DNA from: Ancylobacter tetraedralis
GTDB taxonomy: Bacteria > Pseudomonadota > Alphaproteobacteria > Rhizobiales > Xanthobacteraceae
Direction of reading: 5' to 3'
Length of the DNA stretch: 64,000 bases
NCBI RefSeq assembly: GCF_014195655.1
Contig: NZ_JACICD010000010.1
Span: 1 to 64,000, forward strand
Position numbers and translations under genes: made by a program. The notes below the pieces were generated by a model. The model worked only from the letters and a program-made list of their open reading frames with translations. It searched no databases and was not told the origin of the DNA. Positions within the stretch are counted from its first letter, which is position 1. The number at the start of each line of letters is the position of its first letter. This document shows positions 52,516 to 64,000 of this stretch, piece by piece.

Positions 52516-54246
<1,731 letters not shown>

Positions 54247-54271
54247 AGACCTTCCTTTCGTGTCTCCATGG

Positions 54272-54697
54272 TCAGCGGCGGACGGCACCACTTTTCTTCG
54301 CTCGTGCCAGTTCGAGGAAGCTGGCCTTGATTTTCGCGAACAGCCCTGGCGGGATGAATCCGTAGCTGAACTCACCCGGTTTGCCAGGAACCGGCGACAG
54401 CCCGCCATTCGGCCATTCGTCGATATTGTGCTCCGATACGATCACCCAACTCGGCTCGCTGTCGAGGCCGATAGCCTCTTTCACCTTCGCCGGAATCTCG
54501 ATCCCCACCGTATCGCCGGACGGCGGCGTATGGGTGATCGGCAGCAACACTACATAGCGAGGGCGCACAGGGGAATCGGTCGCGGCGACGAGGCACGTCG
54601 GGCGATCCTTGCCTTGATCGCGGCCAGCAGCTGCCTCGTGCGTCCAGAGGTAGTCATAGCGGAGAATGAGGCCGGGCTTTGGTTCGGGAAACGCCAC
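54272..54697 (-). CDS. PemK-like plasmid-maintenance toxin
   Basis: A 141-residue protein resembling MazF/PemK-type growth inhibitors: PGLILRYDYLW at the start, RPTCLVAATDSP, RYVVLLPITHTPPSGDTVGIEIP (shown in parts) and SEHNIDEWP. Such toxins cleave RNA. It starts 10 bases after the antitoxin gene and precedes the recombinase by 25 bases. Catalytic residues cannot be assigned with confidence from sequence alone. Confidence 0.75.
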   Translation of the reverse strand: MAFPEPKPGLILRYDYLWTHEAAAGRDQGKDRPTCLVAATDSPVRPRYVVLLPITHTPPSGDTVGIEIPAKVKEAIGLDSEPSWVIVSEHNIDEWPNGGLSPVPGKPGEFSYGFIPPGLFAKIKASFLELARAKKSGAVRR

Positions 54698-54707
54698 GGC
54701 GAACGCC

Positions 54708-54962
54708 TTACTTCAACAGGTCGTTCAGGTGTGCGTGCTCGGCGCCCATCTCCGCACGCTCCACCGCGTCGATCACCACATCGATGGCGTCGGCCGTGCG
54801 GTGGGTCCGCTGCGCGGCGGCCCGAAGCCAATCATAATGGTCAGCGGACATCAGTACGAACTCGCGACGTCCGTGCCGTGTGATCTCCACCGGCTCGCGC
54901 TGGGCCTGATGCTGGAACTCGCCGAACTTGCGCTGGAATTCGAGGGAACCGACTCTCGCCAT
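54708..54962 (-). CDS. Phd/YefM-type antitoxin
   Basis: An 84-residue antitoxin. Seen: the N-terminal DNA-binding segment KFGEFQHQAQREPVEITRHGRREFVLMSADHYDWLR (shown in part: REPVEITRHGRREFVLMSA). It precedes the toxin gene, the usual order in type II systems, and likely autoregulates the operon. ATG at 54962 is used; an ATG at 54971 sits directly against the ribosome binding site AAAGG. Confidence 0.82.
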   Translation of the reverse strand: MARVGSLEFQRKFGEFQHQAQREPVEITRHGRREFVLMSADHYDWLRAAAQRTHRTADAIDVVIDAVERAEMGAEHAHLNDLLK

Positions 54963-55028
54963 GGCGGGCATCCTTTCAGATCGCATGCCAGAATTATACG
55001 TATAATTTGTTTATGAGCAAAGCTGGAA

Positions 55029-55238
55029 TTACACCTCCTCGCCCGTCGAACGTTTCCTCCGGACCTTCCGCTCCAACGCGATGTGCCGATCAAACTGCTC
55101 GCGGGCGATCTGGCGACCGATGATCCGGGCAAGACCCAGAACCGCCTCTTCGGCACGTTTGGAGCGGGCCAGCGCCGTCTCCGGTCCGGCTAACGGTCCG
55201 AGTGCCTTAGGGTTGTTCCTGTGCCGCTTGAACGTCAT
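55029..55238 (-). CDS. Small hypothetical protein
   Basis: A 69-residue basic protein (MTFKRHRNNPKALGPLAGPE...) that looks like a real coding sequence by its composition and charged helix ARIIGRQIAREQFDRHIALERK. No family is recognised with confidence. It is upstream of the toxin-antitoxin pair on the same strand. Confidence 0.45.
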   Translation of the reverse strand: MTFKRHRNNPKALGPLAGPETALARSKRAEEAVLGLARIIGRQIAREQFDRHIALERKVRRKRSTGEEV

Positions 55239-55558
55239 TGCGTCCGAAAATCCCGAGCCGGAAAGGCCCAGGAACGACCGAAGACCTTCCCGAGCGCACG
55301 GGAAAGCCCCAAACGATGGTCGTGCGGCGAAAAGGACACCATCACGTGCAAATGGGATGCCTTGACTGAGGCGTTACAAGCGCCCCGGTCAAGGCAAGGG
55401 CGTCGAATGCGCCATTCCTGTCCCGAATGAGCGGCTCGTCAAACTCCCCTTACGGTGCTGTCCGCCTCTGTCCTGCTGCGGAAGCGGGTCGCGCATGCGG
55501 CAGCGCGCCATCGCGTCGCGTGGGCTGCGAAGAGACTCGCGCATCGTTCCCTCTACCC
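55239..55558. other. Element region without a recognised gene
   Basis: This 320-base stretch between the small hypothetical gene and the tyrosine recombinase remnant shows no recognised gene on either strand. The open frames here are short and Arg/Ser/Pro-rich. Confidence 0.5.
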
Positions 55559-56994
55559 TCATGCCGCTTCCCACACCTTGTTGAGGATCCGTGCCGCGAG
55601 GGCGGCCTTGTCCTGCGGTAGAAAGCGCCCATAGTGCTTGGCGACCATCTCCGGGGTGTCCTGGATGGCGTAGCTCGCCTGCTCATAGGAGCCGGTCTTC
55701 TTGAGGATGTGGGTCGCGAGCACGTCCCGGACATTGTGCGGGCCGTGGGGCAGCAGGCCCTTGATGGCACCACGACCGGTATAGGGGTTGTGGATGCCAT
55801 AGCGCTGGATTGCCAGACGCCAGGCCTCGTAGAAGGTGTTTTGGCAGTAGGCGGCATCCTTGCTGGTCAGCTTCACCGTCTTGACGAACAGCGTGCCCGG
55901 ATCGGCCGCGTGCTTGAGCAGCACCCTACGGTGCCGGTCGATATAGGCCTCGAGATAGTGATAGAGGCCGCCGAGGTCGGGTAGGATCAGCCGGAATGGC
56001 TTGCTGCCGAAGAAGGACGAGTTCGCGTTCTTGAAGGCGACGGAGGGGATAAGAACCTCCCATCCCTGGTCGCGCTCGCTCCAGCGCAACTCACCGCGCT
56101 TGAGCTCCGCAAGGCGGCGCTCCGAGGTTGGCAGCCGGCCGCGGGGACAGACGAGGAGCTGACGCAGGTTCTTCTGCCGAAGCCCGAGATGCAGGCCGAG
56201 CCGCAGCATGAGGAAGGCCCGCACCGCCTCGGCCGCAGCGCGCGGGTAGCGCTTCTCGTCCGGCATCAAGCGCAGGATTTCCTCGGTGATCTTGCGATAC
56301 TCGGCGACGGGGCTGTCCGCCTCCAGCACCGCGATGATCGGCTCGAAGGGATCACGGTGGATGCGCGCTACGCGCTGCACCTCCCGTGCGCGGGCGAGGC
56401 CATGGCGATGCATCTGCTCGCAGGCTGCGTCCCAGTCAGCACGGGCAGCGGCAACGTCGCGCTCGGTGATCAGATTGGGGATAGGACGGATGCGTTCCGC
56501 CAACTGCGGGTTTTGGCGCAGCCAGCCTGTCTCGGCGCGGGTGAGCGCGGCAGCGATGCGCAGCATGTCGACTTCCCACGCGGTGTAGAAGCCGCGCCGA
56601 CGCTCGCGCCATTGGATGTACCAGTCCCACACGATCGGGAAGACCAGAAGGCCAAAGCTCAGGTTTTCCAGCGGCACGCCGAAACCGTGGACCGCGCCGC
56701 TGGGTGAAGCTGCCAGCGCACCGAACATCAGGCCGAGATGCTCGACCTTCTGGGATGCCGTCTCCTCGCTCCAGACACCATTGCGCTGATAGCCGAAGGC
56801 CGTCAGCGTCGCCGTCTTGAACCGGACGAGATCGGCCATCTCCTCGGCCAGCCGAGGCGGCGCATCGAGCGCCGCACTCGCGAGGTCCGGATCGGGCAGC
56901 GATCATCCTCTTCCCGGCAAAACCGGTACAGCCCGCGCGGCCTGGAGGACTGATCGAGCAGGCCGGGAAAGCGGATCGAATAGCGCTGCTTCAT
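55559..56994 (-). pseudogene. Tyrosine recombinase (site-specific integrase), frameshifted
   Basis: The main frame (55559-56839) encodes a 426-residue tyrosine recombinase with catalytic Arg in GLRQKNLRQL, His/Arg in HGPHNVRDVLATHIL and Tyr in VAKHYGRFL. Upstream, a different frame from an ATG at 56994 reads MKQRYSIRF.. to RGLYRFCREEDDR. The main frame continues as SLPDPDLASAALDAPP..LAEEM but is blocked upstream by a TGA. The two frames join at about 56899-56905, so a one-base insertion or two-base deletion probably disrupted a longer gene. A start at 56839 could still give a shorter product. Confidence 0.68.
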
Positions 56995-57000
56995 GGCAGC

Positions 57001-57285
57001 GGCCTGGAAGCGCCGATAGTCGGTCGTTCCCGAGATCACTATTCCGCCACCCGACAGCAAGAGGCGGCGGCATCCAGCGAGGAAGAGCGGCTGATCGCGA
57101 TACTCTTCGCGGCAGACGCCGCGTCTCTGCGTGGTCTTTCAGCGAAACTCGACGTGCTGATCGCCGTCGGGGCCGACGGCGCCGAGGGGCGGCATTTCCC
57201 ATGGCCCGAACTGCGGCGCATGCGACGGGATGTTGCACGCTTCATGCAGTCGCAGCGGCCCGATGCTATCGGCCTCACTGCTTGA
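57001..57285 (+). pseudogene. 5'-truncated gene remnant
   Basis: A plus-strand frame without any start codon reads as a normal protein: EERLIAILFAADAASLRGL, LIAVGADGAEGRHFPWPELRRMRRDVARFM, ending in TGA at 57285. The composition is protein-like, unlike the antisense frames. It lies between the head of the tyrosine recombinase and the end of the HNH gene and looks like the 3' end of a gene cut by recombination. Family unknown. Confidence 0.4.
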
Positions 57286-58174
57286 AGCCGTGCTCCCGAT
57301 GCCAACGCAGGAAGTGCGGATGCGGACGCTCGAACGCCCGTTGCGGGGCAATGGCGCGTCCGCTCCGATTGATGAAGGCGCGCACGCCATCGGGATCGTT
57401 GGCGTGCCGGGAGATCAGCACGTCGAGATCATCCGACAGGCTGATCAGCCCGCGGTCAAACATCCAGTGCGCCGTACCTGACAAAGCCAATCCATTGCCG
57501 ACGATATCCGGACCGTTCGCCTGAACGGGCTGAATATGCACCGCCGCGACCTCGGCCCGCCCGCCGCCATTGATGAGCTTCAAGCCGCTGATGGCGCAGC
57601 GCTCGTCATAGGCGCGCAGCACGATGCGTCGGAAGACGCGATCCCGTACGATCCGGGATGAGAGATAGCTGACGCGCTCGCGACTCTCCTCGAAAGCAAA
57701 CGGAGCCTGTTCTTCGCGGAATCCGTTCGGAGGCAAATCGGCATCCGTGCGCGGAAGCAGCGGCGCACGGTCATCGAGGCCGCGCGCGATGATGCGGTCG
57801 AAATCGCTCGGCGAGAGCGGTCGAACCGCGGCCTGGGCACGGCCGGAGATCCGCCCATCCTCGTTCAGAACGCCGCGCTCGATGACACCATCGTCATCGC
57901 TGAACGGCACCGGGCTGGCGAAGTCGAGATAGCTGCCCGGCTCGATCAGCGCGAGAAACATGCCCGGTTCTGTCGGATCGGATACAACACGCTCCACCTT
58001 GGCGATGGCGAAATAGCCGCGCGTCTCCGCCACCTTCCGCGGCTCGTAATAGACGATCCAATCGCCAACGCAGGCCTCGACGCGGCTGAGATATTGCGCC
58101 GGGAACTGGTACCGATCCGCCGGGCTGTCGTCGTAGATAGAGTCAATACGGTGGATGAAAACGCCGAATCCCAT
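57275..58174 (-). CDS. HNH endonuclease with EVE/PUA-like N-terminal domain
   Basis: A 299-residue nuclease of the restriction-type HNH family (HNH_2-like). The N-terminal part (about 30-110: VGDWIVYYEPRKVAETRGYFAIAKV) resembles an EVE/PUA-like fold. The C-terminal HNH region has YDERCAISGLKLINGGGRAEVAAVHIQPV and NGPDIVGNGLALSGTAHWMFDRGLISL (in parts). Conserved Cys, His and Asn are visible. Association with modified-base recognition is suggested by this architecture but not shown. Placement next to mobile genes and a retron hints at defence. Confidence 0.78.
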   Translation of the reverse strand: MGFGVFIHRIDSIYDDSPADRYQFPAQYLSRVEACVGDWIVYYEPRKVAETRGYFAIAKVERVVSDPTEPGMFLALIEPGSYLDFASPVPFSDDDGVIERGVLNEDGRISGRAQAAVRPLSPSDFDRIIARGLDDRAPLLPRTDADLPPNGFREEQAPFAFEESRERVSYLSSRIVRDRVFRRIVLRAYDERCAISGLKLINGGGRAEVAAVHIQPVQANGPDIVGNGLALSGTAHWMFDRGLISLSDDLDVLISRHANDPDGVRAFINRSGRAIAPQRAFERPHPHFLRWHREHGFKQ

Positions 58175-58321
58175 GGCGCGATCTTACCGCGCCATCCCGC
58201 CGGCGCGAGGGCGCAAGGAGCCGGGTCGCGCAGCTGCGGGCGGTCGGCTGAACGCCGAGAGCGGAAACTCATCCTGCAATCATGGACGGTCACGGCTCGA
58301 GGCGGATCGCGCCGCTGTGCC

Positions 58322-59308
58322 TCACGCGGTCACGTTCAGCACGATCTTGCCCAATCCGCCGCCCGCCTCCATGGCGCGATGCGCCTCGGCGGCCTGCGCG
58401 AGTGGAAAGACCTTACCAACCAGCGGCTCCAGCCGGCCATCGGCGAACATCGGAAGCGCGCCTTCCGCGAAGCGCTGCACCATGGCGCGCTTTTCGTCCA
58501 CGGTGCGCGATTTCATCACCGTGCCGATGAGGCGCAGGTGGTTGTGCAGCAACACCGAGAGCGGGATGCTGGCGGTGTCCTGCCCGCTCAGCAGGCCGAC
58601 CTGAACCAGGCGCCCGCCTGGGGCGAGGCTGCGCAGGTTGCGCGCGAGATAGTCACCGCCGACGAAATCGACGATCACATCGACCCCGCGCCCACCGGTG
58701 GCATCACGCACCCCAAGCTCGAAGTCCTCGGAACGATAATCGAACACCGCCTCGGCACCCAGCGCCAGCACCTCGGCGCGGCGCTCGGCATTGGCGGTTG
58801 CGAAGACGCGCGCACCGAAGGCGTGGGCGATCTGGACACCTGCGGACCCGACACCGCCGGCCGCCGCGTGGATGAGCACGGCCATCCCGCGAGCTGTCTC
58901 GCCGAGATGCACGGCGGCTTCCCAGGCGGTGACGAAGGATTCCATCACTGCCGCCGCCCCGACATAATCGAGATCCTCGGGAATGCGCACCGCCATGGCG
59001 CGGTCGACGCGGGCAAATTCGGCATAGGCGCCGCCGCCGACGATTCCCATCACCCGCTCGCCGGGCCCGATGTCGGTGACATCGGCGCCGACCGCCACCA
59101 CCTCGCCGGCCACTTCAAGCCCGAGCAGGTCGCTATCGCCGTAGCTCTGGCGACCGTAATAGCCCTGCCGCTGTAACAGATCGGCGCGGTTGACGCCGGT
59201 CGCGTGTACCTTGACCAGAAGATCGCCGGGGCGGGCCTGCGGCATAGGCACTTCGGCGAGGCGAAGGACATCCGCCTCGCCGAAGTCGTCGAACACGACC
59301 GCTTTCAT
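58322..59308 (-). CDS. Zinc-free quinone oxidoreductase, MDR family
   Basis: A 328-residue NADPH:quinone oxidoreductase-type enzyme of the zeta-crystallin group. Seen: MKAVVFDDFGEADVLRL, VNRADLLQRQGYYG, and the nucleotide loop VLIHAAAGGVGSAGVQIA. No catalytic zinc ligands are present. The ATG at 59308 overlaps the stop of the upstream gene by 4 bases. A divergent LysR gene upstream probably controls the pair. Confidence 0.9.
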   Translation of the reverse strand: MKAVVFDDFGEADVLRLAEVPMPQARPGDLLVKVHATGVNRADLLQRQGYYGRQSYGDSDLLGLEVAGEVVAVGADVTDIGPGERVMGIVGGGAYAEFARVDRAMAVRIPEDLDYVGAAAVMESFVTAWEAAVHLGETARGMAVLIHAAAGGVGSAGVQIAHAFGARVFATANAERRAEVLALGAEAVFDYRSEDFELGVRDATGGRGVDVIVDFVGGDYLARNLRSLAPGGRLVQVGLLSGQDTASIPLSVLLHNHLRLIGTVMKSRTVDEKRAMVQRFAEGALPMFADGRLEPLVGKVFPLAQAAEAHRAMEAGGGLGKIVLNVTA

Positions 59309-59853
59309 TTCGCTGCGGCCTTGGCGACCGCGCGGCGGGCGATGCTGGCGGCGAAGAGCGGCGTCTCGCGGCGGTTGTGGTCGCCACCGGCCTCCTGCCG
59401 GGCCACGGCCGCCTGCTCGAAGCTCTGACCGTGTGCAGCAAGGAAGTCCATGAACACGTCGGTCGGGTGCGAGGTGACGCGGTTGGTGTAGCGGGTGCGC
59501 CCACCCTCGATCGACTCGGCGATCAGTTCCCAGATGACGTTGACCTGCGTGCGTCCCACCGGTGTGAACACGTCGGAGATCGAATTCATCCGGCAATAGT
59601 GCGCCGTGGCTTCCTCGGCGACATAGTGCTGGATCACCAGGCCGGTGCCGATCATCTCGACATTGATCACCATGCGGCGACCATCGTCCGTCGTGGTGAC
59701 GCCGGAGCCGATATGGTCCGGTGGGCAGCAGCGCAGATATTCCGCCTCCGGCAGCGTGAACAGCCAGACCGCGATGTCGACCTTTTCGAGGGAAACGTCG
59801 ATTTCCGCGGTATAGGCGGACTGTGAAAGGATCTTGTCGGTGAGGGCTTTCAT
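59305..59853 (-). CDS. Uncharacterised protein co-transcribed with the MDR oxidoreductase
   Basis: A 182-residue cytoplasmic protein (no signal peptide). Its sequence, for example VTTTDDGRRMVINVEMIGTGLVIQHYVAE and TQVNVIWELIAES, suggests a lipocalin- or SRPBCC-like small-molecule binding barrel, but I cannot confirm the family. Start at 59853 places the gene just downstream of the promoter region shared with the LysR gene; the open frame extends further but unconserved. Confidence 0.65.
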   Translation of the reverse strand: MKALTDKILSQSAYTAEIDVSLEKVDIAVWLFTLPEAEYLRCCPPDHIGSGVTTTDDGRRMVINVEMIGTGLVIQHYVAEEATAHYCRMNSISDVFTPVGRTQVNVIWELIAESIEGGRTRYTNRVTSHPTDVFMDFLAAHGQSFEQAAVARQEAGGDHNRRETPLFAASIARRAVAKAAAK

Positions 59854-60150
59854 TCTTCTGCCTTGTCGATATACGTTTGTATTAGACATCAGCGTCCGTC
59901 TTCCCGGAGGCCGAACGCCAATACGATGAAGATCGATGCGGAACCGGTTATGCGCGACGTCTCGCCTGGGCGTATTTCGATATCTCCATGATCGCTGACC
60001 TTGCTTGCGAGATGGAACGACTGCCCGATTTGCCGCGATGCGTGCACGCCGATGAGGTGCGGCCGCTGTGTGAGCGCCACGAATATGCGAGTGTCCGGGA
60101 CCGGCGATAAGCCGGAGCCTGCTGCAAACGGCTTTGCCTGGATCGCAAAG

Positions 60151-61068
60151 ATGAGACCCCATTTCGCTGAGTATCTCGCCACCTTCGTCGATGTCGTCCG
60201 GGCCGGGAGCTTTTCAGGTGCCGCCCGCCGGCGCGCGGTGACGCCTTCGGCGATCGTCCGCCAGATCGACGCGTTGGAGGCGGATCTGGGCGTCGCCCTG
60301 CTCATCCGCTCGACGCGGGCGCTCACGCTCACCGATGCCGGCCAACGGCTGCATGAGCGGGCCTTGCGGCATCTCGACGAACTGGCCGACACCCATGCGG
60401 AGGTCGCCGCCTTCGACGGTTCGGTCTCCGGCACGCTGCGGATCGCCTGCTTCCCGACCTTCGGCAAGCGCTATGTCCTGCCTGTCGTCGCGGCGTTGCA
60501 GATCGAGCATCCGGCTCTGCATGTCGAGCTAGACCTGACGGAACGGCTGGCCGATCCGGTGGCCGAACGTCTCGACCTTGTCATCCGCATGGGCGCGCTG
60601 GCCGACAGTACGCTGATCGCAACCAGGCTGGCGCCGCTCGCGCGGCTGCTGGTCGCGAGCCCGGTCTATCTGGCGCGGGCGGGCACGCCCGACAGCGCGG
60701 CGGATCTGTCATCGCATCGGCTGCTCGACAAGCTACATGGCGCCGATCTGCTTGGTTGGCGCGAGGTACTCGGTTGCCCAGCGGGCCACGCCGGAAAAGG
60801 CACGGTGACCTTCCGGTCAGATGATTTCGAGGCCCTGCGCGCGGCGGCTGAGGCGGGCTTGGGTGTCGCGCTCCTGTCGAGCTGGGTTGTCGGACCGGAT
60901 GTCAGGGTGGGAAAGCTGGTGCGGCTGGGGCTCGGCGGTGAGCCATGGAACGACGACTCGTCAGGAATCTATCTGTTGCGTGCTCTGCCGCAGCCGAGCG
61001 CGAAGGTGCGCGCCTTCACCGAGGCATTGCGGGCTTCTATCGGAAGTCCGCCGAGTTGGGAGCCGTGA
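60151..61068 (+). CDS. LysR-family transcriptional regulator
   Basis: A 305-residue LysR regulator with helix-turn-helix (EYLATFVDVVRAGSFSGAARR, then VTPSAIVRQIDALEADLGVALL) and substrate-binding domain (GTLRIACFPTFGKRYVLPVV). It is divergent from the MDR oxidoreductase operon with a 297-base gap, so it probably controls that operon. The ATG at 60151 is chosen because the helix-turn-helix begins within 5 residues. Confidence 0.92.
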   Translation: MRPHFAEYLATFVDVVRAGSFSGAARRRAVTPSAIVRQIDALEADLGVALLIRSTRALTLTDAGQRLHERALRHLDELADTHAEVAAFDGSVSGTLRIACFPTFGKRYVLPVVAALQIEHPALHVELDLTERLADPVAERLDLVIRMGALADSTLIATRLAPLARLLVASPVYLARAGTPDSAADLSSHRLLDKLHGADLLGWREVLGCPAGHAGKGTVTFRSDDFEALRAAAEAGLGVALLSSWVVGPDVRVGKLVRLGLGGEPWNDDSSGIYLLRALPQPSAKVRAFTEALRASIGSPPSWEP

Positions 61069-61350
61069 TCGAATAACGTCTGAATGGGCGTAGCGCGCCA
61101 GAAGCAGAAGTTCGCTGCGACGACGACGAATGGCCGGTTTGGGGCCGGGAGCAGACCGGTCTTGGCTGCCACTGCGCAGATAGCCGCCATTCTGCAGCCG
61201 ACATCATTACGGTCGTTCGGAATGCTTACTTCTCCGCCCGAAATCTGCCGCTCAGCTATCTTGGCGCACCGCAGCGTAGCGGCGAATGCGGCAGAACCGC
61301 ATAGGAGACCGGTGCATCGATTGCGGTATGACTTCAATCGGGAACCCGTA
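61069..61350. other. Intergenic region before the retron
   Basis: No gene is supported here. The DNA is visibly less GC-rich than the chromosome, matching the retron that follows. It ends at the likely promoter of the retron ncRNA. Confidence 0.5.
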
Positions 61351-61379
61351 TTTACATTACCCAAGTTTTGCCCTAGTAG
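61351..61379 (+). promoter_or_regulatory. Candidate promoter of the retron ncRNA
   Basis: TTTACA (61351-61356) and TAGTAG (61374-61379) are spaced 17 bases; a start 7-8 bases after the -10 would fall at about 61386-61387, the first base of the ncRNA a1 repeat. The -35 fits well, the -10 poorly. Confidence 0.4.
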
Positions 61380-61386
61380 AGTCGGT

Positions 61387-61526
61387 GGCTTACGGGCAGA
61401 ATTGTTGTCCGGTTTCGAGACATATGTACCAATGCCAGGGGAGCGCTTGTGCTACCATGGAACGTATTGCCGATTTGGGCGGAATGGCTTGTCGGCGTGA
61501 CGATCGCGTAAGAGTGCCCGTAAGCC
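61387..61526 (+). ncRNA. Retron msr-msd ncRNA, Ec67-like
   Basis: Terminal inverted repeats a1 GGCTTACGGGCA (61387-61398) and a2 TGCCCGTAAGCC (61515-61526) are perfect 12-bp complements that would pair. Directly after a1, the base G (61399) is in the context GGCAGAATTGTTG, resembling (from memory) the Ec67 msr start with its branching G. Inside are a hairpin TGTCCG-GTTT-CGAGACA (61406-61422) in the msr part and a GCCGA/TCGGC stem (61469-61496) in the msd part. The unit ends 20 bases before the reverse transcriptase ATG, the classical retron order. Confidence 0.8.
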
Positions 61527-61546
61527 TTTATTGCCTGTGAGTTTCC

Positions 61547-63262
61547 ATGTCCCAACTGGAAAAGCTTAAAGCTGCGAAAGACCGAAAAGAGCTTGCGACA
61601 GTCCTGGGCTACAAGCCGAGTGCGCTCACGGCGATCATTTACCACCCCCCCGCCAAAGACCGTTACACCAACTTTGAAATCGACAAGAAGTCCGGCGGTA
61701 AACGGACCATCAAGGCTCCTGATGCCAAGCTGAAAAAGCTGCAATCACATCTCTCCCATCTGCTATACGCATGCCTGGATGAGATCGAGAAAGAGCGGGA
61801 TGCCAAACCCCTTTCCTTTGGTTTCCGGCGTGACCGATGGATCGCAGACAACGCCACGCGGCACAAGCGTCGCAAATGGGTGCTCAATCTCGATCTGGCG
61901 GATTACTTTCCATCGTTCAATTTCGGTCGCGTTCGCGGTTTCTTTCTGAAGGACAACTCATTTGCCCTGCAGCCGGAAGTAGCGACTACGATTGCGCAGA
62001 TTGCCTGTGATGGCACGGCCCTTCCACAGGGTAGCCCCTGCTCACCGATTATCGCGGAACTCATCGGCCAAGTGCTTGATATGCGACTTGTGCGCCTTGC
62101 CAAGAAATACGGCGTCACCTATAGTCGCTATGCCGATGACATTACCTTCTCAACGAGCCAGAAGGACTTCCCCGCGGGTCTTGCTTCGCAGGATCCCACA
62201 GATGCAACGATCTGGCACCTGAGCGATGAATTGCTGGGCAAGATCACGGCGTCGGGCTTCGCCGTGAATCCTGCGAAGACTAGGGTGCAGTTCCGTGGTA
62301 GCCGGCAGACGGTGACGGGCCTCGTCGTCAATGAGAAGGTTAACATCCCAAGCGAATATTACCGCAACGCGCGCGCCATGTGTGACGCCCTTTTTTCAAG
62401 CGGGCAATACTTTACCTCAATGAAAGCATCGGCGCCCGAGCCTGATCTCACAAGCAATCTTAATCCGCTTGAGGGGGTACTGGGGCACATCTACGCCGTC
62501 ACGCAGACCGAAGACCGGCGCGATGTCAGAGAACAACGGATCAAACCTCGAGCCATCCGGAGCCTCTATCGCAGGTTCCTGTTCTACAAATACTTCGTTG
62601 CCCTCCAAGCGCCGCTGATCGTGACAGAAGGCAAGACAGATCCAGTCTATCTCAGGGAGGCCGTCAAGGCCAGAACTGCATTTCATCCCGTACTGGGGGC
62701 AAAGACGGCCGGCCGTTTTGAGCACGCTGTCCGGTATTTCAACTATGGGGGGCTCGCTCATGAGATATTGGACCTCAGCGGCGGCGGCAGTGGCAACCTG
62801 AGGTCCATTCCGCTGGACTATCGGCGGAATTTTCAACCGTCCAAGAATGATCCGCGTGCCATTGCACATACCCCCTTGGCGCACCCCGTAATCCTCGTTC
62901 TCGACAATGATGATGGTCTCGCGTCGGTTGCTAGCACGATCTGGGACAACTTCAAGGTCAAGATCGACGTGAAGACCACCGCCCACTTCTACCACATAAT
63001 CCAAAATCTGTATGTGGTGAAGACACCGGAGGCAGGAGGCAAGAGTGCAATCGAGTCCCTGTTCCCTGACGTCTGGCTGAATATTGAACTCAATGGTAAG
63101 AAATTCAATTGCTCGAATACAATCAACCCTGAAACTGAGTACAGCAAGGAGGTCTTCGCCAACTCGGTAGTGAAGCCCAATGCCGGCAACATCGATTTTT
63201 CGGGGTTCGATCTACTGTTAGAGAGGATCGTGGCGGCCATCGAGCACCATCGAGCAAAATAG
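61547..63262 (+). CDS. Retron reverse transcriptase fused to a TOPRIM domain
   Basis: A 571-residue retron RT. RT domain (about 40-300): YSRYADDITFS (Tyr195-Asp198) is the catalytic YxDD, VTGL at 256-259 is the retron/group II motif 7, and LPQGSPCSPI at about 163-172 is a hallmark. The C-terminal half is TOPRIM-like: IVTEGKTDPVYL with Glu361 and HPVILVLDNDDG with Asp453-Asp455, the EGxxD and DxD metal motifs. The RT-TOPRIM fusion is the architecture of Ec67 (Eco2). Such retrons are anti-phage systems in which msDNA restrains the effector. Base composition is lower GC than the surroundings, consistent with transfer. Confidence 0.92.
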   Translation: MSQLEKLKAAKDRKELATVLGYKPSALTAIIYHPPAKDRYTNFEIDKKSGGKRTIKAPDAKLKKLQSHLSHLLYACLDEIEKERDAKPLSFGFRRDRWIADNATRHKRRKWVLNLDLADYFPSFNFGRVRGFFLKDNSFALQPEVATTIAQIACDGTALPQGSPCSPIIAELIGQVLDMRLVRLAKKYGVTYSRYADDITFSTSQKDFPAGLASQDPTDATIWHLSDELLGKITASGFAVNPAKTRVQFRGSRQTVTGLVVNEKVNIPSEYYRNARAMCDALFSSGQYFTSMKASAPEPDLTSNLNPLEGVLGHIYAVTQTEDRRDVREQRIKPRAIRSLYRRFLFYKYFVALQAPLIVTEGKTDPVYLREAVKARTAFHPVLGAKTAGRFEHAVRYFNYGGLAHEILDLSGGGSGNLRSIPLDYRRNFQPSKNDPRAIAHTPLAHPVILVLDNDDGLASVASTIWDNFKVKIDVKTTAHFYHIIQNLYVVKTPEAGGKSAIESLFPDVWLNIELNGKKFNCSNTINPETEYSKEVFANSVVKPNAGNIDFSGFDLLLERIVAAIEHHRAK

Positions 63263-63572
63263 GCGTCTCTGCACGATTCGCTGGCGTCTCTGAGGAAAGC
63301 TCCACTTTCTGCTTGCCTGTAAAGTTGCGTGAAAAAGCGAATGGCAGCTCTCTAGAGTTGCTCCCTAAAACCCGCCATTCGGCTTCCCACCCCCTGCCGG
63401 TCATCGCCGCGGGAGATCCCATCACCAGCGCAACGCCGCAATGGGGCTGGTGGCGTACTGTCCGGTTTTGACTGCCGCTGTGTCGATAGCCGGCGCTCTG
63501 CAGCCGCCCCTTCCACGTCATCCCCGAGGATTCGCGGCTGCCCGACAGCGGACGTGCACATCCAAAGATAGG
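63263..63572. other. Spacer between the retron and ParD-like antitoxin
   Basis: No credible gene. The open frames here are short and lack family features. The region leads into the antitoxin promoter/operator at 63573-63611. Confidence 0.5.
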
Positions 63573-63611
63573 TTGACCTTTGAATATATGAAACATATAC
63601 GTTTCGTATAT
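63573..63611 (+). promoter_or_regulatory. Promoter and palindromic operator of the ParD-like antitoxin
   Basis: TTGACC (63573-63578) and TATACG (63596-63601) with 17-base spacing form a good promoter. The near-perfect inverted repeat ATATGAAAC-ATATAC-GTTTCGTATAT (63586-63611) covers the -10. This arrangement suits autorepression by the antitoxin. Confidence 0.65.
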
Positions 63612-63629
63612 TTCGAGGAAGGAAGCAGC

Positions 63630-63836
63630 ATGGGCCTCGTCAAAATCGATGACGATCTTCACGAACAGGTTCGGCGCGCGAGCACGGTCATGTGCCGCTC
63701 CATCAACGCGCAAGCAGAGTTCTGGATGAAGGTCGGCATGCTCGCTGAAGCTAATCCCACCATGGCGTTCAACGACATCGTCAAGGCGCAGCTCGAGGCG
63801 GCCGATGTTGACCTGCCTTCGGTCGCCGTAGCCTGA
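63630..63836 (+). CDS. ParD-like antitoxin
   Basis: A 68-residue protein of the ParD-like family: MGLVKIDDDLHEQVRRASTV, then RSINAQAEFWMKVGMLAEANP (shown in part), and FNDIVKAQLEAADVDLP. The ribbon-helix-helix start IDDDLHEQVRRAS supports DNA binding. GAGGAAGGAAG lies before the ATG. No adjacent toxin gene is seen in the window on either side. Confidence 0.8.
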   Translation: MGLVKIDDDLHEQVRRASTVMCRSINAQAEFWMKVGMLAEANPTMAFNDIVKAQLEAADVDLPSVAVA

Positions 63837-63873
63837 CATGCGGCTCCCGGACGAACCGACGAGGACGACGACC

Positions 63874-64000
63874 ATGACCTTTCAGGACGAAATCGCAGCG
63901 TTCTTCGGGGACTATGTGGATGCATTCGGCCGCCACGATGCTGATGCGCTCAGCGAGTTATGGGAACCGGTGGGACTATTTCCATCGCCCAGCGGCAACT
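63874..64000 (+). CDS. NTF2/SnoaL-like protein, 5' end only
   Basis: The first 42 codons are visible (MTFQDEIAAFFGDYVDAFGR, then HDADALSELWEPVG), resembling the helix opening of SnoaL/DUF4440-type NTF2-like proteins. It runs off the right edge. The start ATG follows the ParD-like gene by 37 bases. Function unknown. Confidence 0.55.
   Translation, partial: MTFQDEIAAFFGDYVDAFGRHDADALSELWEPVGLFPSPSGN

Follow-up and report, generated by a model that had tools for sequence, protein, structure and literature searches.

An Ec67-like type I-C retron and its template RNA in the alphaproteobacterium Ancylobacter tetraedralis

The closest described system is retron Eco2 (Ec67) of Escherichia coli. According to PMC12405507, the Eco2 msDNA assembles with the RT-Toprim protein into a trimer that inhibits itself, the Toprim domain on its own acts as a toxic RNase, anti-phage defence is exerted by this RNase, and escaper phages carry denB mutations. 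The same study places the branch at rG15, the start of the DNA at dT1 and the last template base at rG52, after rU51, and sets the domain limit at residues 368/369. It also describes S513 as a metal-B ligand whose alanine mutant lacks defence, reports that H281 of the thumb stacks on the msr loop, and marks R332, a trimer-loop residue, as important. A second source finds the length of Eco2 msDNA to be independent of RNase H1 (PMC8989520). In E. coli NCTC8623 (L045:2097-2217) the RefSeq start of Eco2 lies inside the ncRNA, and the ATG at 2217, past a2, gives a protein of 586 aa; the residue given as K562 in PMC12405507 is D562 in this allele. Another type I-C retron of E. coli (L029) is that of pF16EC0470-1; among 5426 complete E. 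coli genomes, a query of this type has matches in 538, and in 510 the identity reaches at least 99%.

Here we analyse a locus of A. tetraedralis that is a distant cousin of Ec67. It lies in a stretch of 64,000 nucleotides, hereafter the window, for which an earlier note made from the sequence alone had proposed a retron. We hold, with a probability of roughly nine in ten, that the locus is a complete type I-C (Eco2/Ec67-like) retron, carried as an accessory cassette with a conserved gene of the LysR family upstream, and operating according to the Eco2 scheme. The features to which the text refers are as follows.

61156..61200, forward strand: left copy of a 45-nt direct repeat, 80% identical to 63462-63506
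61351..61377, forward strand: weak promoter-like site with 8 of 12 consensus bases, 9 nt before a1
61387..61526, forward strand: retron ncRNA (msr-msd), matched by the held-out covariance model R1
61387..61398, forward strand: a1 inverted repeat GGCTTACGGGCA, 12 of 12 bases in Watson-Crick pairs with a2
61399, forward strand: predicted branch G (2',5' priming), within GGGCAGAAT, aligned with Eco2 rG15
61406..61422, forward strand: msr stem-loop of 6 bp with a GUUU loop and a bulged A61418, from folds and family covariation
61434..61513, reverse strand: predicted msDNA of about 80 nt, from alignment with the Eco2 start and stop
61515..61526, forward strand: a2 inverted repeat TGCCCGTAAGCC, from its pairing with a1
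61547..63262, forward strand: RT-Toprim fusion protein of 571 aa, from NF038237, PADLOC and PDB 9lm3/9i2f
61547..62611, forward strand: RT domain, residues 1-355, from Pfam RVT_1, its limit transferred from Eco2 368/369
62129..62140, forward strand: YADD catalytic motif, residues 195-198, from translation and Eco2 alignment
62612..63259, forward strand: Toprim domain, residues 356-571, from alignment to Eco2
63462..63506, forward strand: right copy of the flanking direct repeat, 80% identical to the left copy

Several full-length family matches place the 571-aa product in type I-C, a type name taken, like the others used here, from PADLOC and common usage. Residues 4-568 match NCBIfam NF038237 (retron_Ec67_fus, 'retron Ec67 family RNA-directed DNA polymerase/endonuclease') with 655 bits against a cut-off of 450, the best PADLOC model is RT-Toprim_I-C (5.3e-210), and the top solved structures are the Ec67 proteins PDB 9lm3 and 9i2f (4.4e-113, residues 2-569). 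Pfam recognises the RT half alone (RVT_1, residues 45-249, 6.9e-19). The Ec67-type RT-TOPRIM assignment of the earlier note therefore holds, and the alignment of the RT with Ec67/Eco2 that it had called for runs end to end, at 39.5% protein identity. Its suggestion that the retron is new and undescribed applies at most to the individual locus. It fails for the kind, since NCBI annotation already names the family in Sinorhizobium, Rhizobium and Sphingomonas plasmids; family and type are thus known in public annotation, close alphaproteobacterial relatives included. A limited search of the open-access literature found no paper dedicated to an alphaproteobacterial I-C retron. Judged by its sequence, the locus is an ordinary member of a known anti-phage family, with an RT, a putative RNA-cutting domain and a template RNA of its own.

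The inverted repeat that delimits the RNA proves little alone, because such repeats are not rare in this DNA. Perfect 12-mer inverted repeats with a gap of 80-200 nt give 13 overlapping matches at about seven places in the window; in 20 order-1 simulated windows the mean was 3.2 matches and the maximum 8. By itself, then, the perfect a1/a2 repeat is weak evidence here. Relatives were located through the RT-Toprim coding sequence, and 24 loci were examined: the window, 11 of 18 plasmid records (covering at least 80% of the query), nine near-full-length genome matches, two loci from genome contigs and one E. coli chromosome. The last was found by a DNA query that also contained an ncRNA, and its match fell in the RT gene; partial matches, for example L004, L005, L008, L023, L024, L025 and L050, lie outside this set. 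The same kind of RNA stands directly 5' of the RT in all 24 RT-Toprim loci. A script found paired a1/a2 and the branch G in 23, and in the remaining one (L049), which has a variant beside the branch G, the RNA was found by model R1 (E 3.9e-13).

Based on an alignment of 22 RNAs, which leaves out L049 and L042 (nearly identical to L040), the a1/a2 cells are 99.2% paired and 11 of the 12 pairs have changed on both sides. In the msr stem 88.1% of cells are paired and seven of the eight named pairs vary on both sides; 15 of the 22 RNAs do not form the outermost of the named pairs. Slid controls drop to 30-41% paired. None of 500 shuffles reached the covariation score; five did so on a single measure out of five, that of further pair types. 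The absence of a1/a2 covariation across homologues, which the earlier note had named as telling against a retron, is thus contrary to what we find; this covariation in relatives proves that the RNA is a retron RNA, and with it the base pairing and the limits of the RNA are established.

The covariance model R1 bears on the same question from held-out data: 19 RNAs were used to build it, and those of the window, of L021 and of Sinorhizobium meliloti were withheld. Its sole match in the 64-kb window, up to E 10, is 61387-61526 (E 2.8e-11), exactly the limits that the earlier note had proposed for such a comparison. Among 12 further sources R1 matches eight, which amount to six distinct places (L008/L017 and L023/L035 overlap), and has no match in L036, L038, L007 and L018. 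Of 61 genomes, comprising the window's own and relatives, two have matches, the window's own and G012, and the window RNA is the only R1 match in its own genome among the matches listed. A search of positions 55000-64000 with Rfam gave no retron match. Rfam 15 likewise gives no retron family match for Eco2 (L045) or for three relatives, so that its silence on the window is uninformative. R1 finds an RNA that Rfam 15 misses, although models of retron RNAs may be available elsewhere.

These results also bear on the proposal that the gene encodes a non-retron RT (group II intron, DGR, CRISPR-associated or DRT) beside a chance inverted repeat. Such a proposal could draw on the chance occurrence of 12-bp repeats of this spacing in the window and on the weak inner branches of the RT tree. 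In that tree, which includes 10 other RTs, branches are long and the inner forks weak; the I-C rows needed two changes, and they come together as a single group in 40% of 200 bootstrap trees. The RTs of L011, L014, L015 and L020, which we label group-II-like from a motif, are split from the window across a 100/100 branch. Against a group II intron RT, the other outcome that the earlier note had set against its reading, stands a score of 49.2 bits with TIGR04416, for which the cut-off is 300; Drt2 reaches 26 bits against a cut-off of 390. Given these scores, the a1/a2 covariation and the held-out RNA match, we consider a non-retron RT refuted and its probability next to nil.

The anatomy of the retron RNA can be read against that of Eco2. 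The branch G (column 13) is invariant in all 22 aligned RNAs. From the Eco2 alignment, the first dT of the msDNA is predicted to be templated by A61513 and its last base by approximately G61434, and the molecule is expected to begin TCTTACGCG. The fold of the window RNA is better than that of most shuffled sequences (z -2.55, with 4 of 200 as good). The DNA fold of the predicted 80-nt msDNA is no more stable than those of shuffles (z 0.70), and the same is true of the 67-mer msDNA of Eco2 (z 0.05). In the window, L021 and S. meliloti alike, the msr stem has 6 bp, a four-base loop and a bulged A, and these three are the sequences among the 22 that break the family pairs at columns 25/35 and 26/34. 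We regard the bulged stem as a mild clade-specific peculiarity common to the window and its two closest relatives.

RNAalifold finds no msd hairpin shared across the 22 family RNAs; within the three-member clade a hairpin is drawn near the stop site, some of its pairs being broken in one of the three. This variability of the msd sequence in the family would suit a type I-C retron whose msDNA trigger is quite unlike the DenB of Eco2, a view that is compatible with the Eco2-like scheme and touches its last step only. In the msd region, however, Eco2 also differs from L029, the other type I-C retron of E. coli, and we lean slightly away from a trigger of a different sort while taking it as a serious contender.

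The protein retains the near-invariant catalytic residues of the family. Its RT motifs are NAxxH (N102-H106), YADD (195-198) and VTG (256-258), and the Toprim domain, fused C-terminally to the RT, has EGKTD (361-365) and DNDD (453-456), with catalytic E361, D365, D453/D455 and E503. Thus the gene, its domains and its catalytic residues are established. E361, D365, D453, D455, E503 and K534 align with Eco2 E374, D378, D460, D462, E515 and K546, and F43 with F46. In 23 comparable proteins, a set that leaves out the truncated L027, Eco2 residues E374, D378, D460, E515 and K546 are present without exception, as are the Y and both D residues of YADD; at position D462, 20 proteins have D and three have E. 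Within the Toprim part, the lysines that never vary are K530 and K546. The omitted locus, from Caballeronia sp. SBC2 (L027:3001-3690), has an early stop in the RT frame and is apparently a broken copy beside an intact-looking ncRNA.

Other positions differ from Eco2. The S513 position is A501 in the window protein, H281 corresponds to D280, and opposite R332 stands I332, in a loop that aligns poorly. S513 is found in 8 of 23 family proteins and alanine also in L028 and L046; as the position varies across the family, a serine there does not define the family in these proteins, and the alanine is no proof of lost function. Residues S513, H281 and R332, described as important in Eco2, thus vary across the family, which makes their generality testable. 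It might further be argued that the window, L021 and S. meliloti form an alphaproteobacterial I-C sub-type with rewired RNA-protein contacts, a trigger of its own and a different assembly or sensing, given the short bulged msr stem, D in place of H281, no R332 and no fixed S513; we find this doubtful. A structure prediction from a 3-row alignment (pLDDT 38.1) supports no conclusion, on a trimer or otherwise.

Upstream of a1, TTTACA (61351-61356) and CCTAGT (61372-61377) are separated by a 15-nt spacer. Across the family, the site upstream of a1 agrees with the 12-base consensus at 8 or more bases in 17 of 23 cases; among 500 control positions, 19.2% do so. The candidate promoter of the earlier note therefore exists, at 8 of 12 bases, but it is weak and is not reported by a stricter promoter scan. 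The other elements that the note had listed were read accurately: a1/a2, the G in its GGCAGA context and the RNA limits are correct base for base, and YADD, VTG, EGKTD and DNDD are all found, as is the fused TOPRIM.

The weak promoter, the alanine at the S513 position and the bulged msr stem could together suggest a decayed or silent retron, intact in sequence, in which either the promoter or the Toprim effector has ceased to function and defence is absent. Decay is difficult to reconcile with an ORF of 571 codons without stops, near-invariant catalytic residues that are retained and a perfect a1/a2. Furthermore, the same msr bulge occurs in two relatives at 63 and 66% protein identity, which indicates a feature maintained in the clade and not random decay, and the alanine recurs in the two proteins named above. 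We therefore judge a decayed retron to be quite improbable.

Under the favoured reading, that of a type I-C retron working as Eco2 does, a single transcript would carry the ncRNA and then the RT-Toprim gene, an arrangement that we infer from Eco2. The a1/a2 ends would pair and the RT would grip the msr stem-loop, whereupon the 2'-OH of G61399 would prime DNA synthesis opposite A61513. Synthesis would halt near G61434, leaving a branched msDNA of about 80 nt, and the complex of msDNA and RT would keep the Toprim RNase inactive. By analogy, a phage product that damages or alters the msDNA (in Eco2 the trigger is probably the DNA nuclease DenB) would release the Toprim domain to cut RNA, and the infection would be stopped; phage sensing and defence by the window retron may follow the Eco2 pattern.

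The distribution of such loci is sparse. At E 1e-60, and with the window's own genome included, 6 of 385 genomes of the class, 7 of 398 of the phylum and 3 of 297 of the order match; in the order of the genome that holds L021 (G143) the figure is 2 of 297. A scan of viral contigs found no relative of the retron. Related systems range from alphaproteobacteria to Staphylococcus and Enterococcus plasmids, a wide spread that would fit horizontal transfer. The neighbouring DNA at 40000-60000 matches 302 plasmid records, and the ten genera most often represented among them (182 records) belong to the alphaproteobacteria; a stretch of 1.8 kb is 87% identical to Ancylobacter polymorphus. Both agree with an alphaproteobacterial host.

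Just upstream of the cassette lies a LysR-family gene (60001 to 61068 or 61072) that is kept in the genus; 10 of 30 genomes besides the window's own match at least 980 query bases at 85-91% identity. In nine directly compared loci the similarity to the window ends between 60982 and 61156. In eight of these loci the DNA past the LysR gene was compared: it continues alike in L064, L067 and L068 and differently in the remaining five. By BLAST, the retron is absent downstream of the LysR gene from the compared genus loci. Since the LysR gene is kept, the DNA beyond it varies and the compared loci lack the retron, the retron is an accessory insertion at a variable site. The G+C content drops from about 67% to 55% over the cassette.

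Other elements occur nearby. The stretch at about 61100-61160, beside the left direct repeat, belongs to a dispersed repeat with eight genome matches including itself. A Phd/YefM antitoxin gene (54708-54986) is found near a serine recombinase ORF (52549-54408, reverse strand) whose 3' end overlaps tRNA-Met (52516-52592), and 52516-54986 is perhaps the edge of an integrated element. An HNH protein (57275-58174, reverse strand) bears a weak resemblance to phosphorothioate-DNA-dependent restriction enzymes (5e-27, which falls short of the NCBIfam cut-off). Outside the window, L032:9394-11658 (about 69394-71658 of the contig) holds an RmrA/ImmA-like repressor gene and a TIR protein that matches ThsB (4e-76); about 6-8 kb separate this further candidate defence module from the retron upstream of it.

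Comparison with known systems sets the locus within a structurally solved defence family, which it extends by a member with an RNA delimited through covariation; the cassette can therefore be cloned and tested directly. Like Eco2, it has the order ncRNA-RT, the branch-G context GGCAGA.TTGTTG, and an msDNA start (GAG before a2) and AAT-G stop context that align. It differs from Eco2 in a shorter, bulged msr stem, in the residues at H281, S513 and R332, and in a predicted msDNA of 80 rather than 67 nt, the msd being unrelated in sequence. Closer to the window is the retron of S. meliloti GR4 pRmeGR4b (WP_015241553.1, whose annotation bears the same name as NF038237), with 63% protein identity, the same bulged-A msr stem and the same 3' end CGCGTAAGAGTGCC; unlike the window retron, it lies on a plasmid with transposase and integrase genes downstream, and its msd differs. 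L021, from a genome of the same class and a different order, has 66% protein identity and a nearly identical msr, whereas its msd differs and a tRNA-Ala lies about 1.1 kb upstream of it. Finally, RT-TIR (type XII) and RT-protease (type XI) retrons have a related RT domain (PADLOC 5e-96 and 1e-91), but these matches are limited to the RT part (residues 4-374 and 5-319, respectively), to which a different effector is fused.
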